From contig NZ_CP051180.1 of NCBI RefSeq assembly GCF_012295575.1, positions 2,604,001-2,668,000 on the forward strand: a stretch of 64,000 nucleotides of DNA, in the 5' to 3' direction. The notes under the pieces are model-generated. The model worked only from the letters and a program-made list of their open reading frames with translations. It was not told where the DNA came from and made no database searches. Positions 38,706 to 44,708 of the stretch are shown here, piece by piece. The number at the start of each line of letters is the position of its first letter. Within the stretch, counting starts at the first letter, position 1. Both the position numbers and the translations under genes were made by a program. The stretch is from Ferrimonas lipolytica. Lineage in GTDB: Bacteria > Pseudomonadota > Gammaproteobacteria > Enterobacterales > Shewanellaceae.

Positions 38706-40145
38706 TTACTGATGGTGTTTACGCACCGCAGCTACCGCTCGTTCGATAATCTGCTCAGATTGACCGAGATAGTTTTCTGGCGCCAAGATTGCGCTGATGG
38801 CCTTGGCATCAAAGTGTTGACTCAACTGTGGATCAGTGCGCAATACCTCTGCCAGATCACTGCCTTTGTCGGCGTTTTTAATCGCTTTTTTCACAAGGCT
38901 GTAGGCGTCAGCACGACCAACTTTATCAACCATCGCGTTCATCACTGCTTCAGACATAACAAAGTTATTAGAGTCGGCGAAATTATCCAGCATCACCTGT
39001 TTATTAACGATTAACTTAGAGAACATTCGTTGGGCTCGCTCAAGCGAGGCGTTAGTCGCCATAAATGACTCTGGAATAATGGACCATTCAACAATCCATG
39101 GCGCTCCTTGGCGAGCATCGTTATGGCTCATTATTTGCGGTGCCGCAGAGTTATACATCGCGCCAAGGCGCGCTAGGCCGCCCATAAACTCAGACGCTCG
39201 CGGATTACGCTTATGCGGCATAGTTGACGAGGCGCCGCCCTCCCCCTCTTTCAGCTCGTTAATCTGGGTACGGCTTAGGGTATTCACGTCAATTGCGACA
39301 CGCCCTAAGGTGGCATTAACCAACGCCAACGTCTGTACCGTTTCCGCAAAGGTATCGCGGCTCGGGTTCCATGGCGTTAACGGCGTTTGCAACTGCAGTT
39401 TGTTGGCAATCTTTTGCTGCAGGACCAAACCTTGATCGCCAAATGGCGCCAAGGTGCCAACGGTAGAACCAAATTGCAGCTCTAACCGACCTGCCACCTC
39501 ATCCAATCGAACCGAGTGGCGGTGCAGCTCTCCAATATAGGTGGTTAGGTGCAACCCAAAGGTAGTAGGGATCGCATCTTGGCCGTTGGAGCGGGCGATC
39601 ATGATGGTGGCTTGGTGTTCCTCAGCCAAATCCGCCAGCTGCAAAATCAATCCGCGCAAGCGCACCTGCGTCGCGTCAATTGCCGCTTGCACCTGCATTA
39701 CGGTTGCAGAGTCCATGATGTCTTGAGTGGTTGTACCAAGGTGCAAGTAGTTAGCCACCTCACTGCCGCCAGCCTTTTTAACCTGACCGACCACCCCTTT
39801 GATGCCTCGGCCAACCTTATTGGTTTGCTGTTGCAGTGCAGCCATATCAATGTTGTCGATGGTCGCTGCAGCGGTAATGGCCTCAGCCGCGCTAACAGGA
39901 ATAATGCCCAGCTCGGCTTGCGATTGCGCCAACGCAATTTCTACTTGTAGCCAGTAGTTCACCAATGCCGTATCGCTAAATACGTTACGGATCTCCGGGG
40001 TGCTAAATAGGTCGCCATAAATGGCTGAGTCGTACACGCTGACATTGGTGGCGTTAGCGCTATCGACGCCAGTGGCTTGTGCCGGTGCAATCACACTTAA
40101 GGTGGATAGCAGTGCTATCGAAGTGGCAATCAGTGTTTTTTTCAT
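38706..40145 (-). CDS. Exported lyase of the fumarase/adenylosuccinate lyase (CMLE-like) superfamily
   Basis: 479 residues. Starts with a clear Sec signal MKKTLIATSIALLSTLSVIAPAQA, followed by a complete lyase: VANYLHLGTTTQDIMDSATV (about 131-150), the superfamily signature GASSTMPHKRNP (about 308-319) and a C-terminal LAPENYLGQ typical of 3-carboxymuconate cycloisomerase-like members. The superfamily releases or adds fumarate or a similar unsaturated acid. Relatives are normally cytoplasmic, so an exported copy beside a periplasmic fumarate-reductase-type flavocytochrome suggests it makes that enzyme's acceptor. The substrate is not predictable from motifs. Confidence 0.88.
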   Translation of the reverse strand: MKKTLIATSIALLSTLSVIAPAQATGVDSANATNVSVYDSAIYGDLFSTPEIRNVFSDTALVNYWLQVEIALAQSQAELGIIPVSAAEAITAAATIDNIDMAALQQQTNKVGRGIKGVVGQVKKAGGSEVANYLHLGTTTQDIMDSATVMQVQAAIDATQVRLRGLILQLADLAEEHQATIMIARSNGQDAIPTTFGLHLTTYIGELHRHSVRLDEVAGRLELQFGSTVGTLAPFGDQGLVLQQKIANKLQLQTPLTPWNPSRDTFAETVQTLALVNATLGRVAIDVNTLSRTQINELKEGEGGASSTMPHKRNPRASEFMGGLARLGAMYNSAAPQIMSHNDARQGAPWIVEWSIIPESFMATNASLERAQRMFSKLIVNKQVMLDNFADSNNFVMSEAVMNAMVDKVGRADAYSLVKKAIKNADKGSDLAEVLRTDPQLSQHFDAKAISAILAPENYLGQSEQIIERAVAAVRKHHQ

Positions 40146-40201
40146 AACAAGTACTCCGTTGCGGTACCACTTGGTACCGCAAACTCTTAGCTATAAAGGA
40201 A

Positions 40202-41980
40202 TTATTTGATGTATTTAGCCGCTTGCTCGCCGGCAAGACGCCCAAAGGTAACGATGTCTGAAATGGCATTACCACCCAAGCGGTTGGCACCATGCACACC
40301 ACCAGTTGCTTCGCCAGCAGCGTATAAACCTTTAATTGTTTGGCCTTGTTCGTTTTGAACTTCTGCCCGATTATCGATGGTCACTCCACCCATGGTGTGG
40401 TGCACCGCCGGGGTAACCTCTAACGCGTAATAAGCGCCTTGGTTAAGCGCACGAGGTAGATTCGGGCGCGCAAAATCGAGATCTTTACCGCCTTCCACCA
40501 AGCTGTTGTAACGCTTTACCGTGGCCGCAAGTTGGGCTGCATCGATATCCAATTCAGCAGCGATCTCGCTCAACTGTTGTGATTCCGACACAATCCCTAG
40601 CGCAATATAGCCTTCAATTTTTTTCAGTGATTTACGCACCGAATCATCAAACACCAAGAAGGCACTGCCACCTTTTTGCTTAAGAATGGCTGCGGCGGCA
40701 ACATCACGAGTGGTGATCTCATTAACGAAACGGTTGCCATCTCGGTTAACTAAAATCGCACCATTACCACGGACCGCTTCGGTAATCATTACGCCGCCAA
40801 GCGGTGAATAGGTCGGGTGCGCCTGTACGTATTCAAGATCGGTCATACTGGCACCAGCATTGGCTGCCACATCTAAGCCATCACCAGTCGCTCCGGGATG
40901 GTTAGTTGCAGCAAACCCTTTTAGCTTCGGATCATGATGAGCAACACGTTCGTTGTTTTTAGCAAAGCCACCGGTTGCTAAAATTGCCGCCTTGGCTTCA
41001 ATCCAGTAGTAACCGGTATGGGCGCCTTTGACCAATAATCCGCGAACCGAACCGTCTGCATGCTTCAATATCTCGACCGCTCGGGTGTTTAAGCGCATAT
41101 CGATATCGCGTGTAACGGCATTGTCATACAGTACCTGCACCACATGAGCACCAACCCCAGCACCACCGGTTGGGCGGTGTGAACGGTTAACTGATGCGCC
41201 TCCCATGCGGCCAACGTCTTTGAGATCCGCGCCCATTGCGGTTAACCATGCAACCGAACCGGCAGAGTTGTTCGCCAGTATGTCGACCAATGCTGGATCG
41301 TTTTTGCCGTAGCCACCTTTCATGGTGTCTTCCACCATGATGCTGACCTTGTCTTCAATACCTAGGGCATCTTGCGACGCCGACTCTGCTGCATTCATGC
41401 CGCCAGCAGCAAGCTTAGCGTTGCCACCTATCACCGGTTCTTTCTCGACCAACACCACCTTTGCACCGGCATCAAATGCCGCTACTGCGGCAGAAAATCC
41501 AGCGCCACCAGAACCAATTACCACAACATCGGTGGATAATGCTGGTGCACCAGCAAGTACTTGCTGTCGCTGTTGTTGCTCGAGCGCAAGCTCAGCAATG
41601 GTTGGCTCATCACGTTGCCATTTACCACCAAATGGCAGCTCAAACTCAAAGCTATGACAGGAATCGCAATAGGTTACCGACTGCTCATGGCCCATATGAC
41701 AAGTGGTGCAAGACGGTTCGCCGGGAAGATGAGAATCATGGGCGTTAACATGGTGGCGTTGGGTCTCTTCAGCCACTTCCGCTAGGCTGCCGTGACAGCT
41801 TGCACATTGGCTGTTTTCAACGCTCAAGTTATCGTCGATAGGTTGGTTATTGTCGACATGACATGCCTCACAACCAAGCTCTTCGGCATGGAACTCAGCT
41901 AAATTATCAACGGCATTAGCGTTGACTGCTAGTGCAGCAAGAATGCCACCAACAACAAGTGAATAACGAAACGGTTTCAT
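40202..41980 (-). CDS. fccA: Tetraheme flavocytochrome c (fumarate reductase type)
   Basis: 592 residues, exported (signal [23 protein letters not shown]). The N-terminal domain has four heme motifs: CEACH, CASCH, CTTCH, CDSCH (about 37-109). The FAD domain starts [21 protein letters not shown] (about 152-172). Fumarate-site residues of Shewanella Fcc3 are conserved: QAHPT, NEITTRD, HHTMGG and [10 protein letters not shown]. It should take electrons from a CymA-type quinol oxidase and reduce fumarate or a close analogue in the periplasm. Genes run porin, fccA, lyase in one direction, with short gaps. Confidence 0.94.
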
Positions 41981-41992
41981 AACGATGAGTCC

Positions 41993-43054
41993 TTAAAACA
42001 CAAAGCGGCTGTGCAAAGTTAGTAGGGAGTCGTCAAAGTCGACGGTGGTGGCAGTGGTTTGGTAATCGCCATCGTGGTAGCTGGCCACGGCACTAACGGT
42101 CAGGGCTTTAGTCACCTGATAGTCGTAACCGACACTAACGTTATAGCTGCTGCTGTCAGTTAAATCACTGCGGCTATCGCCATTTTCAGCAACCGCGTTT
42201 TTCACTACCTTGCCCAAGCCTGCATCGTCGCTAATAAACTGCGCCTTGACCGTATGCTGGCCCGACTTGTATTTGACACTGGCTAAGTAACTGCTCCCAC
42301 CCAATTCCGGGTACACCAGTGAGTCGGTGTCTTGATACAACGCCCCAAGCTGCCATGGGCCTAGTTTGTAGGCTGCAACCAACCGCATCACATCCAAGCC
42401 GTTCAAGCCATCTGCCCAGGTTACGCTGGTAAACAAGGGGCTCGATTTGAACTTTTTATCACCGAAGTGAGCAGACAGGGCAACGTTGCTCGCCCCATCC
42501 AGTTCGGCATCGTCGCCAAAGTCATCTTCAAACAGAACGGTGCTATGCAAAGTCCAACCTTGATAGTTGGCACTGCTTGCAACGAGTTGATCTGCCAAAC
42601 GCTCTTGCCCAGCAATCAAGTAACCCATATCCGCATTGGTGGCGTTGAATACGTCTACCGGACCTTCTGAAGATTTCACTACGGTATTTTTCCGACCAAC
42701 TAAGACGCTACCGTAATAACCCTCTACCCCAAGAAAGGTGTCGCGTGAGTTGAATGGTTCGTTTTTGTCGTCCTCTTCAAACGCGTCCACACCCACTTCT
42801 GCTTGGTAAAACAGAGTCAGATCACCATTAACCTGATAGTCGCCCTTTAGACCAAGGCGCGAGGCATAGTTTTCCAGAGCGATACCGTCCACTTTCTCTT
42901 TGCTGGCGATGCCATTTTCACTAGCCGTAACCCCCAACCAGATACGCCCATAGAAATCTGGCATTTCCATTAAATTTGGGGCTTTCTCAGCTGCCGTTGC
43001 CGAGCCAGACAGCACAGCTAATATCGCTGTGGCTGCCCAAGTGGTTTTCTTCAT
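41993..43054 (-). CDS. Outer-membrane porin (general, trimeric type)
   Basis: 353 residues; signal MKKTTWAATAILAVLSGSATA, then a beta-rich barrel with FYGRIWLGVTA, SRLGLKGDYQVNGDLTLFYQAEVGVD (about 65-90), GVEGYYGSVLVGR (about 104-116) and a C-terminal Phe (LHSRFVF), all typical of proteobacterial porins. Located 12 bases upstream of fccA, so it may admit the substrate of the periplasmic module. The true start is ATG 43054; the frame to 43159 extends past the signal. Confidence 0.88.
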   Translation of the reverse strand: MKKTTWAATAILAVLSGSATAAEKAPNLMEMPDFYGRIWLGVTASENGIASKEKVDGIALENYASRLGLKGDYQVNGDLTLFYQAEVGVDAFEEDDKNEPFNSRDTFLGVEGYYGSVLVGRKNTVVKSSEGPVDVFNATNADMGYLIAGQERLADQLVASSANYQGWTLHSTVLFEDDFGDDAELDGASNVALSAHFGDKKFKSSPLFTSVTWADGLNGLDVMRLVAAYKLGPWQLGALYQDTDSLVYPELGGSSYLASVKYKSGQHTVKAQFISDDAGLGKVVKNAVAENGDSRSDLTDSSSYNVSVGYDYQVTKALTVSAVASYHDGDYQTTATTVDFDDSLLTLHSRFVF

Positions 43055-43335
43055 ATTGCCAATCATTTGCAAGACTCCATCAATCATCTGCAGCACTCGA
43101 TGAGTGCGGTTGGGCATACGGTAGCGACCAGACCAACCAACAACAATTGGCATTAACACCTATATAATTGCTTTTTTTGCAACTATAAGATCTAGATAAA
43201 AATAAATTAAATCAACAACTTATTTGAATGAGCAAAGGGGGATCGACAAAACAGAGGTGAAGGGGCTAACAGATTAACCTCATTCAATTAGGGCGGTTAG
43301 TTATATCTAAGTAGGTAGAGAAAGAAGGTTAGTTA

Positions 43336-44265
43336 TTATTTGTGAACGCTATCTTCAACCTGCGTTAATTCATCAATAATAATGTTATTAGCTTGCTGGC
43401 GCAGTTCAGCAATCACCTGTTGCAACGCGATATTATGTTTACTGGACTTATGCAGATAAAAAGCGAATTCAAAGCGGAAATCACTCTCTAAAGGCAACGA
43501 TTTTAATCTAGGGGTGTAACTGCTAATTGCCCCGAATTCATCGGTAATGGTGAATCCCATCCCCTGCTCTACCAGCGCGCAAGCAGCTTGGGTAGAGGCG
43601 GTTTCAAGCAGCGGCGTCAAGGTTATCTGCTCCTGCTGGCACAGTTGTTCGATATCTCGACCTAGTAAGGTATTGTTGAGGCTGGGTGCAATAAATGGCA
43701 ACGACAGCAACTGCGACAAAGTAAGTGGCTGTTGTTGCTGTGCTAACGGGTGTTCAATAGGCAATACCACCATCGCACGACAGCGGCAAAAAGGTATGAG
43801 CAACAAATCATTATGCTCGACCGAGCTGCGACCAATGGCCAGATCATATTGGCGGTTGGCAACCCATCGTTTGGCATGACGCATCGATTGCACATCAAGG
43901 TTAATTTGCAGGTCATTGCGCTTCATCATCGCTGCCATCACCGGGGCAACCAACGGGCGAATTACTCGCGGTACCGCCACCAAATTGATCAACTGCCGTT
44001 GCTCAATTTGCAGTCCCTTGGCAAATTCAGGCAGACCATCGAGCGTGGTAAGCACCCGATTGAGCTCTTCATGTAATTGGTACGCTTGATTAGTTGGAGT
44101 TAACTGGCGAACCTGCCGCTCAAACAGTGTCAGCCCCAATTGCTTCTCAAGGTTTTTTAGCTGGCGACTGGCTGCTGACTCACTGAGTGAATGACGCTGC
44201 GCGGCTAACTTAAGCGAGCCTTCAGCCATCACCGCAGCAAAAATTCGCAAACTCTTAAGATTCAT
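43336..44265 (-). CDS. LysR-family transcriptional regulator
   Basis: 309 residues. N-terminal helix-turn-helix LKSLRIFAAVMAEGSLKLAAQRHSLSESAASRQLKNLEKQLGLTLFER (about 3-50), then a periplasmic-binding-type effector domain. It lies upstream and in the same direction as porin-fccA-lyase, so it likely controls them, with a small organic acid as inducer. ATG 44265 is the natural start; a 54-codon upstream extension runs through the hairpin at 44292-44322 and is rejected. Confidence 0.93.
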   Translation of the reverse strand: MNLKSLRIFAAVMAEGSLKLAAQRHSLSESAASRQLKNLEKQLGLTLFERQVRQLTPTNQAYQLHEELNRVLTTLDGLPEFAKGLQIEQRQLINLVAVPRVIRPLVAPVMAAMMKRNDLQINLDVQSMRHAKRWVANRQYDLAIGRSSVEHNDLLLIPFCRCRAMVVLPIEHPLAQQQQPLTLSQLLSLPFIAPSLNNTLLGRDIEQLCQQEQITLTPLLETASTQAACALVEQGMGFTITDEFGAISSYTPRLKSLPLESDFRFEFAFYLHKSSKHNIALQQVIAELRQQANNIIIDELTQVEDSVHK

Positions 44266-44291: not shown

Positions 44292-44322
44292 CCAAAAAAT
44301 CCCAGCAGCCACCACTGCTGGG
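44292..44322 (-). terminator. Terminator-like hairpin in the lysR leader
   Basis: CCCAGCAG and CTGCTGGG (44301-44308/44315-44322) pair around six bases. On the minus strand they are followed by ATTTTTTGG, ending 26 bases before the lysR ATG. No minus-strand gene lies upstream of it. Confidence 0.75.
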
Positions 44323-44708
44323 ACAAGCACTATATCGACTGCACTCCACAGTGAGTAGAGCTAATAGCTCAAAATGGCGACTCGAACACTCCCACCTCAA
44401 TTGGCCAAAAATCATATTGATGTGCAAAGTTCAGCCTAAGTCTCACACCTTCAATCATGCCCCTTGGCAGCAGCATCAGCACTGAGCAATGGGCTTCATC
44501 CTTGCTAAGCCCCGCAGCTGGCGCCCATTGCTATTATTGACACTTGAATTGCGTAGTTGGGCGAATAGTCCACGACATGCCCGTTAACGGGTTCAGCTTG
44601 GCTTCATCCACTCAAGAATACCTTGGTAATCCCGCTGAACATCCTCAACTAGATTCAGATTTTGAGGTAAGATTAAGACTTTCAATCACCTTAATTGCGA
44701 AGAGTAAA
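44323..44708. other. Divergent lysR/ettA intergenic region
   Basis: 386 bases that must hold the promoters of lysR (minus) and ettA (plus). An open frame from 44544 runs into ettA but has no ribosome site or family similarity. Nothing else is recognised. Confidence 0.4.

Follow-up and report, generated by a model that had tools for sequence, protein, structure and literature searches.

A predicted exported lyase encoded beside an Fcc3-type fumarate reductase in Ferrimonas lipolytica: a candidate periplasmic source of an electron acceptor

Fumarate respiration by the tetraheme flavocytochrome c Fcc3 (FccA) of Shewanella is among the described systems closest to a block of four genes in Ferrimonas lipolytica, in which genes for a LysR-type regulator, a porin and an Fcc3-type fumarate reductase are joined by one for a predicted exported lyase of the aspartase/fumarase superfamily. 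The block is part of a 64,000-nucleotide stretch of contig NZ_CP051180.1 (positions 2,604,001 to 2,668,000), hereafter called the window. Comparison genomes, one per species, carry G numbers (G000, the genome of the window; G401, a congener). The flavocytochrome is the same as in Shewanella, the Fcc3 of the window being 65–68% identical to matches in four of five genomes from other genera of the family, but no exported lyase is encoded in the three such loci that were viewed (L068, L069, and L071). A porin gene beside a flavocytochrome c gene, with a LysR regulator and without a lyase, is reportedly found in the IfcA/IfcO/IfcR locus of S. frigidimarina; the gene of the window's genome that we take to be IfcA-like is a different one, a 46% identical paralogue and the sole further flavocytochrome match at E ≤ 1e-100.

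Exported lyases that feed a periplasmic reductase have a precedent in the DMSP (dimethylsulfoniopropionate) lyase DddY: passages of the report that treat DddY, cytochrome c and acrylate reduction describe an unsaturated acid that is made outside the cytoplasm and is usable by a periplasmic reductase (PMC4427408). There, the product is acrylate and the reductase is another one. DddY also belongs to an enzyme family other than that of the lyase described here. Within the aspartase/fumarase superfamily, release of fumarate from a succino-adduct has been shown for S-(2-succino) lyase (2SL) of the yxe locus (sections of PMC9706529). The 2SL-like sequences in our comparison share 33% identity with the window lyase. 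The differences are the yxe-type operon of 2SL and, in all six 2SL-like sequences, a retained catalytic histidine and the absence of a leader. In the superfamily, protonation of the leaving group is ascribed to this histidine, and the nitrosuccinate lyase CreD, a further member with fumarate chemistry, lacks it (Leu170; stated in part of PMC13411527). The window lyase differs from CreD in having Asn instead of Leu and in scoring 231.7 bits against the NCBIfam cut-off of 650. Finally, plasmid-borne cassettes for DcuC, a lyase and malic enzyme contain sister lyases that are 39–44% identical to the window lyase and share its Asn and Arg316. They differ in lacking a leader and in being combined with an inner-membrane carrier and a cytoplasmic malic enzyme, and their function is putative.

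We consider it reasonably probable that the block in F. lipolytica encodes a periplasmic module that generates its own electron acceptor, in which the exported lyase would free fumarate and the co-encoded Fcc3 would respire it.

The four-gene block and its fumarate reductase

All four genes are intact on the minus strand at positions 38706–44265 of the window, and their order is the one first described. Open reading frames (ORFs) and Pfam domains above cut-off (Lyase_1 and ADSL_C; FAD_binding_2 and Cytochrom_c3_2; Porin_4; HTH_1 and LysR_substrate) confirm what an earlier sequence-only reading had proposed, namely a lyase downstream of an Fcc3-like tetraheme reductase, a porin and a LysR regulator. 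The features are as follows:

38706..40145, minus strand: aspartase/fumarase-superfamily lyase, predicted to be exported, 479 residues (Pfam Lyase_1, E 9.8e-36; ADSL_C, E 9.4e-17)
40074..40145, minus strand: predicted Sec-type leader of the lyase, residues 1–24, with MKK start and APAQA end (N termini of leader type here and in five relatives)
39585..39587, minus strand: codon for lyase Asn187, at the usual position of the proton-donor His (alignment of 33 lyases)
39198..39239, minus strand: catalytic SS-loop of the lyase, residues 303–316, GGASSTMPHKRNPR (alignment of 33 lyases)
40202..41980, minus strand: Fcc3-type tetraheme flavocytochrome c fumarate reductase, 592 residues (Pfam, match to Fcc3 1qjd, residues, tree)
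41654..41872, minus strand: four CxxCH heme motifs of Fcc3, at residues 37, 59, 91, and 105 (sequence motif)
41993..43159, minus strand: ORF for a general porin, likely ATG at 43054 (Porin_4)
43168..43182, no strand: candidate LysR box TTGCA-N5-TGCAA with one mismatch (palindrome perfect in two related loci)
43336..44265, minus strand: LysR-type regulator, ATG inside a longer ORF (HTH_1, LysR_substrate)

The regulator gene is separated from the porin ORF by 176 bp (281 bp to the likely porin ATG), the porin ORF from the Fcc3 gene by 12 bp and the latter from the lyase gene by 56 bp. Congener G401 has the four genes in identical order, with gaps of 307, 37, and 61 bp; its lyase is 62–63% and its Fcc3 74% identical to the counterpart in the window. 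The flanks differ, as none of the further ORFs picked in the 19.7 kb stretch of G401 (at least 90 residues) matches an ORF of the window at E ≤ 1e-8. Since the block recurs in a second species, it is not a product of chance. The porin is 55% identical to that of the operon in G401, 43–48% to five porins adjoining the second (46%) flavocytochrome and 32–36% to four that adjoin other Fcc3 genes. No gene for an inner-membrane transporter is present within the four-gene block. Recent transfer was set aside, as base composition gave no signal for it (operon genes 48–52% GC, window 49%), and scans of the window with Rfam and ARAGORN found nothing.

The reductase aligns without gaps to the mature Fcc3 of Shewanella frigidimarina (1qjd; E 1.1e-259). 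It has four CxxCH motifs for four hemes, a flavin adenine dinucleotide domain and the fumarate-binding residues, including all eight residues that we take, with their numbering, to be catalytic in Fcc3 (M236, H365, M375, T377, E378, R402, H504, and R544). Matches of at least 66% are present in 13 of the 14 genomes of the genus, that of the window included, and 11 of these 13 lack the lyase. In the Fcc3 tree, the proteins from the window and G401 are sisters (100/99) within a group of 14 rows (94/96) that consists of the Fcc3 genes of the genus and one family member from another genus. By this placement, it is the ordinary Fcc3 of the genus, now situated within a lyase operon, rather than a special paralogue.

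The lyase and its relatives

A Lyase_1 score of 124.2 bits against a cut-off of 27, the intact SS-loop (S306, S307, K312, and N314) and the equally intact TTQD motif place the lyase in the superfamily. The earlier assignment to the fumarase/CMLE superfamily (CMLE, 3-carboxymuconate cycloisomerase) therefore holds. No NCBIfam cut-off was reached. For 3-carboxymuconate cycloisomerase (PcaB), the scores were 291.0, 322.6, and 237.4 against cut-offs of 355.75, 595, and 371, and for adenylosuccinate lyase 269.2, 358, and 96.6 against 326.2, 626, and 446; a separate gene that resembles purB by sequence likeness is present in the genome. Argininosuccinate lyase and CreD likewise remained under their cut-offs, and the acetyltransferase, ATP-binding cassette (ABC) importer and deacetylase of the yxe-type 2SL operon have no counterpart in the four-gene block. 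Judged by these profiles, the lyase is a superfamily member outside every characterized family tested. Its best solved relatives are a fumarate lyase (3c8t) and trans-aconitate decarboxylase 1 (Tad1, 9h4h).

In an alignment of 33 lyases, which leaves out matches from loci L019–L031, L033, and L094–L098, position 187 is occupied by Asn in all 15 exported and DcuC-associated sequences; the other 18 have His (16), Trp (1) or Asn (1, the second lyase-like gene of G753). Arg316 is present in 15 of the former 15 versus one of the latter 18. The window lyase therefore has Asn187 where the histidine that usually protonates the leaving group is expected, a residue that is typical of the superfamily and not universal. 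On our reading of the motif, this position and that of the missing histidine in CreD correspond. Loss of the proton donor suggests that the leaving group is stable as an anion, as if no proton were needed, and it would favor adducts with a good leaving group as substrates over malate, aspartate, argininosuccinate, and adenylosuccinate. Tad1 also has Asn at position 187; it lacks Arg316 and a short segment that precedes the SS-loop.

The N terminus of the window lyase exhibits the n-, h-, and c-regions of a leader, with an MKK start, a hydrophobic core and an APAQA end, and 35 residues precede the first conserved motif. Leaders were assessed from the alignment and by simply counting hydrophobicity, and both bear out the Sec signal peptide that had been proposed for this protein. 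Leader-like N termini occur in five relatives (G401, G075, G150, G753, and G749), all six proteins having 32–38 residues ahead of the motif, and the leader is absent from cytoplasmic kin: in 22 of 27 leaderless sequences only 0–13 residues precede the motif, and the three longest leaderless extensions (20, 29, and 47 residues in ORFs taken from their first start) have hydrophobicities of 0.50–0.84 compared with 1.75–2.25 in the six leaders. Hydrophobicity is not sufficient by itself, as two 2SL-like sequences reach 2.03 and 2.13 within the folded part; it is the number of residues before the motif that separates the groups. Sec-dependent export of the lyase to the periplasm is thus predicted. 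By eye, the leader of the G749 lyase (L110 / L112:9151-10593) contains LITGC, a possible lipobox, and this copy may therefore be a lipoprotein.

That an exported member of this superfamily is unusual, as had been supposed, agrees with the searches: leaders were checked for part of the matches, and exported members look rare, having been found in six genomes across the genus, family, order, class, and phylum samples. The lyase was detected in four of 152 genomes of the family (E ≤ 1e-60) and in two of 12 genomes of family f9. At the same threshold, 39 of 394 genomes of the order sample gave a match, which started at query residue 1–3 in three of them. At E ≤ 1e-85, the window's genome was the sole match among 369 in the class sample, and 12 of 398 genomes matched in the phylum sample, all but the window's own from query residue 30 or later, with N termini inspected in part. 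A search of genome contigs yielded one distant match. Among the entries listed by literature searches, with subscription papers mostly outside their reach and supplements not covered, none concerns the pairing of a fumarate reductase with an exported lyase from this superfamily, and the word lyase is not used in the portion consulted of a survey of extracytosolic flavin reductases (PMC8238504).

Related lyases are combined with varying partners. The exported lyase follows a DASS symporter in G075 and G150, which lie outside the genus and encode a divergently oriented LysR regulator 40% identical to that of the window; a DASS gene also precedes the exported lyase in G753 and G749, and both stretches contain Porin_O_P genes. 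DASS proteins were identified by profile in G075, G753, and G749 and by a near-identical protein start in G150. The stretch from G753 additionally contains TctC, TctA and, beside the latter, a second lyase-like gene that encodes no leader (L111:12350-13450); its product has 366 residues with the C-terminal part missing, Asn at the histidine position and Arg after the SS-loop. The nearest cytoplasmic relatives, nine lyases, adjoin the C4-dicarboxylate carrier DcuC (assigned by profile in two loci, by record annotation in four and by likeness at the protein start in three), and malic enzyme is encoded near six of them. The four loci assigned by record annotation (L101–L104; plasmids of Providencia, E. 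coli, and Vibrio), from the four records examined among 52 plasmid records, show a mobile cassette of a MurR/RpiR regulator, DcuC, malic enzyme and an adenylosuccinate-lyase-like protein; DUF4886 and a porin are also encoded in three of them, and the records assign the cassette no function. A plasmid search with the G075 lyase returned three records at E ≤ 1e-100, two being the DcuC cassettes L103 and L104 and the third from Photobacterium.

For trees, three of 36 lyase-like ORFs were left out (a duplicate, a shortened DcuC-neighbored frame of 344 residues from G075, L046, and an ArgH-like gene), and five long or distant sequences were removed from the resulting 33 to give 28. In the 28-row tree, the nine DcuC-neighbored lyases form a clade of their own (100/100), and a single clade unites them with the exported lyases (100/100). 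Export would have changed state at least twice. The pairing of one lyase lineage with a fumarate reductase, an anion symporter or a dicarboxylate carrier points to fumarate as the product. Fumarate release is further supported by more distant relatives in loci that resemble yxe: in the three viewed of six sequences labeled 2SL, the lyase adjoins a small acetyltransferase-like ORF and an ABC-type importer, with an amidohydrolase in L047 and L048 (mostly by eye; the amidohydrolase of L047 is supported by a profile, and no profile matched the small ORF at 1e-10). The other three were labeled by sequence likeness alone, and the two characterized 2SL enzymes lie outside the comparison.

A proposed periplasmic route and its rivals

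In the route that we propose, a soluble acid, a succinate bearing a leaving group X (thiolate, carboxylate, nitrite or similar), would enter through the porin, the exported lyase would eliminate HX by beta-elimination and release fumarate in the periplasm, and Fcc3 would turn it into succinate, drawing electrons from the quinol pool by way of a presumed CymA-like donor. The cell would thereby respire with no transport of the acid through the inner membrane, and LysR, perhaps bound at TTGCA-N5-TGCAA, would turn on the operon, presumably one transcript, when substrate or product is present. The idea of the sequence-only reading that a precursor is taken up, split outside the cytoplasm and its product respired gains support from the DASS and DcuC partners, the operon in two species and the residues of Fcc3; location, activity, substrate, and product of the lyase are the parts of it that we infer.

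Several observations weigh against this route. The lyase is present in only two of 14 genomes of the genus (E ≤ 1e-20), an ordinary Fcc3 would serve imported fumarate even without it, and the superfamily also performs non-fumarate chemistry, such as that of cycloisomerases and the decarboxylase Tad1. The lyase clade is known from sequences alone, and the best tree does not unite the six exported lyases (their monophyly is not rejected, p-AU 0.09); in the 33-row tree, the G753/G749 pair stands outside the exported and DcuC-associated clade at an open fork. Concerning regulation, the G749 stretch gave no LysR match, some 7 kb separate the LysR match of G753 from the exported lyase, the TTGCA-N5-TGCAA box has two mismatches in G401, and only two sigma-70-like sites were found versus 7.2 in shuffled sequences, none of them between LysR and porin.

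The lyase could instead serve nutrient scavenging, freeing HX (a thiol, an amine or another nutrient) or a carbon acid, with Fcc3 merely disposing of by-product fumarate. The DASS partner outside the genus suits carbon uptake and not respiration, malic enzyme in six of nine DcuC cassettes is a carbon route, and the known S-(2-succino) lyase allows sulfur to be drawn from its substrate (part of PMC9706529). Because gaps of 56 and 61 bp separate the lyase gene from the reductase gene before it in two species and the block lacks an inner-membrane transporter gene, we regard scavenging as unlikely. Still less likely is a different reaction, in which a decarboxylase or cycloisomerase would make another unsaturated acid, for example from trans-aconitate or a muconate. 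Tad1, with its Asn187, is among the best solved matches and CMLE profiles score 237–323 bits, but Tad1 lacks both the segment before the SS-loop and Arg316, which are common to the exported and DcuC-associated lyases, the eight fumarate residues checked are kept in Fcc3, and dicarboxylate-type carriers recur as partners. That the lyase was inserted beside fccA by accident and works independently would fit the few genomes that hold it and the 11 of 13 Fcc3-bearing genomes of the genus that do not. We consider this very improbable, as gene order is kept in two species whose lyase and Fcc3 are 62–74% identical and whose flanks differ, and as LysR accompanies the lyase in four genomes.

Beyond the proposed release and respiration of fumarate, we tentatively suggest, as a possibility with the odds against it, that the lyase represents an unrecognized periplasmic succino-lyase subfamily with Asn in place of the acid histidine, through which bacteria would respire fumarate in bound form; fumarate adducts of sediments, succinated thiols or others, would be the terminal electron acceptors, with lyase and Fcc3 acting as one extracytoplasmic unit. 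If true, fumarate respiration would run without import on adducts regarded as damage products or dead ends, an exported branch would be added to a superfamily that is cytoplasmic in textbooks, elimination without an acid histidine would gain a test case, and a function would be suggested for the sister cassettes on enterobacterial and Vibrio plasmids. The pairing of lyase and reductase is suggestive of a group of exported lyases about which little is known.

Regulatory sequences

At E ≤ 1e-15, the LysR regulator has one match each in the lyase-bearing genomes G000, G401, G075, and G150 and none in the lyase-free genomes G365 and G382; first-look candidates numbered 48 and 70 in G075 and G150 and 63 and 58 in G365 and G382, and the search did not include G753 and G749. 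The palindrome TTGCA-N5-TGCAA is perfect in the intergenic regions between LysR and DASS genes of G075 and G150, and no copy was seen ahead of the DASS gene of G753 or G749. In the window, a site as good as that at 43168–43182 arises in 15 of 2000 mononucleotide shuffles of a 181-nt stretch, and seven such sites occur in the 64 kb; the palindrome is a candidate LysR box and is offered as a lead only. CRP and FNR boxes common to the loci were not found.

Upstream of Fcc3, genes for an apparent response regulator and sensor kinase were seen by eye in G365, G382, and G089, the last from another genus (L066, L067, and L068). Control of Fcc3 by such a pair was set aside for the block, since neither G000 nor G401 gave a full-length match to the G365 kinase (the best ones, at 6.8e-37 and 3.1e-21, cover just its C-terminal part), and control may have been rewired to LysR. 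A strong hairpin followed by a T-run is located at 44299–44324 on the minus strand, 34–59 bases upstream of the LysR start (z −4.2; none of 200 shuffles was as stable). No likely gene precedes it on this strand and it has no Rfam match; it may be an attenuator or mark where a small RNA ends.

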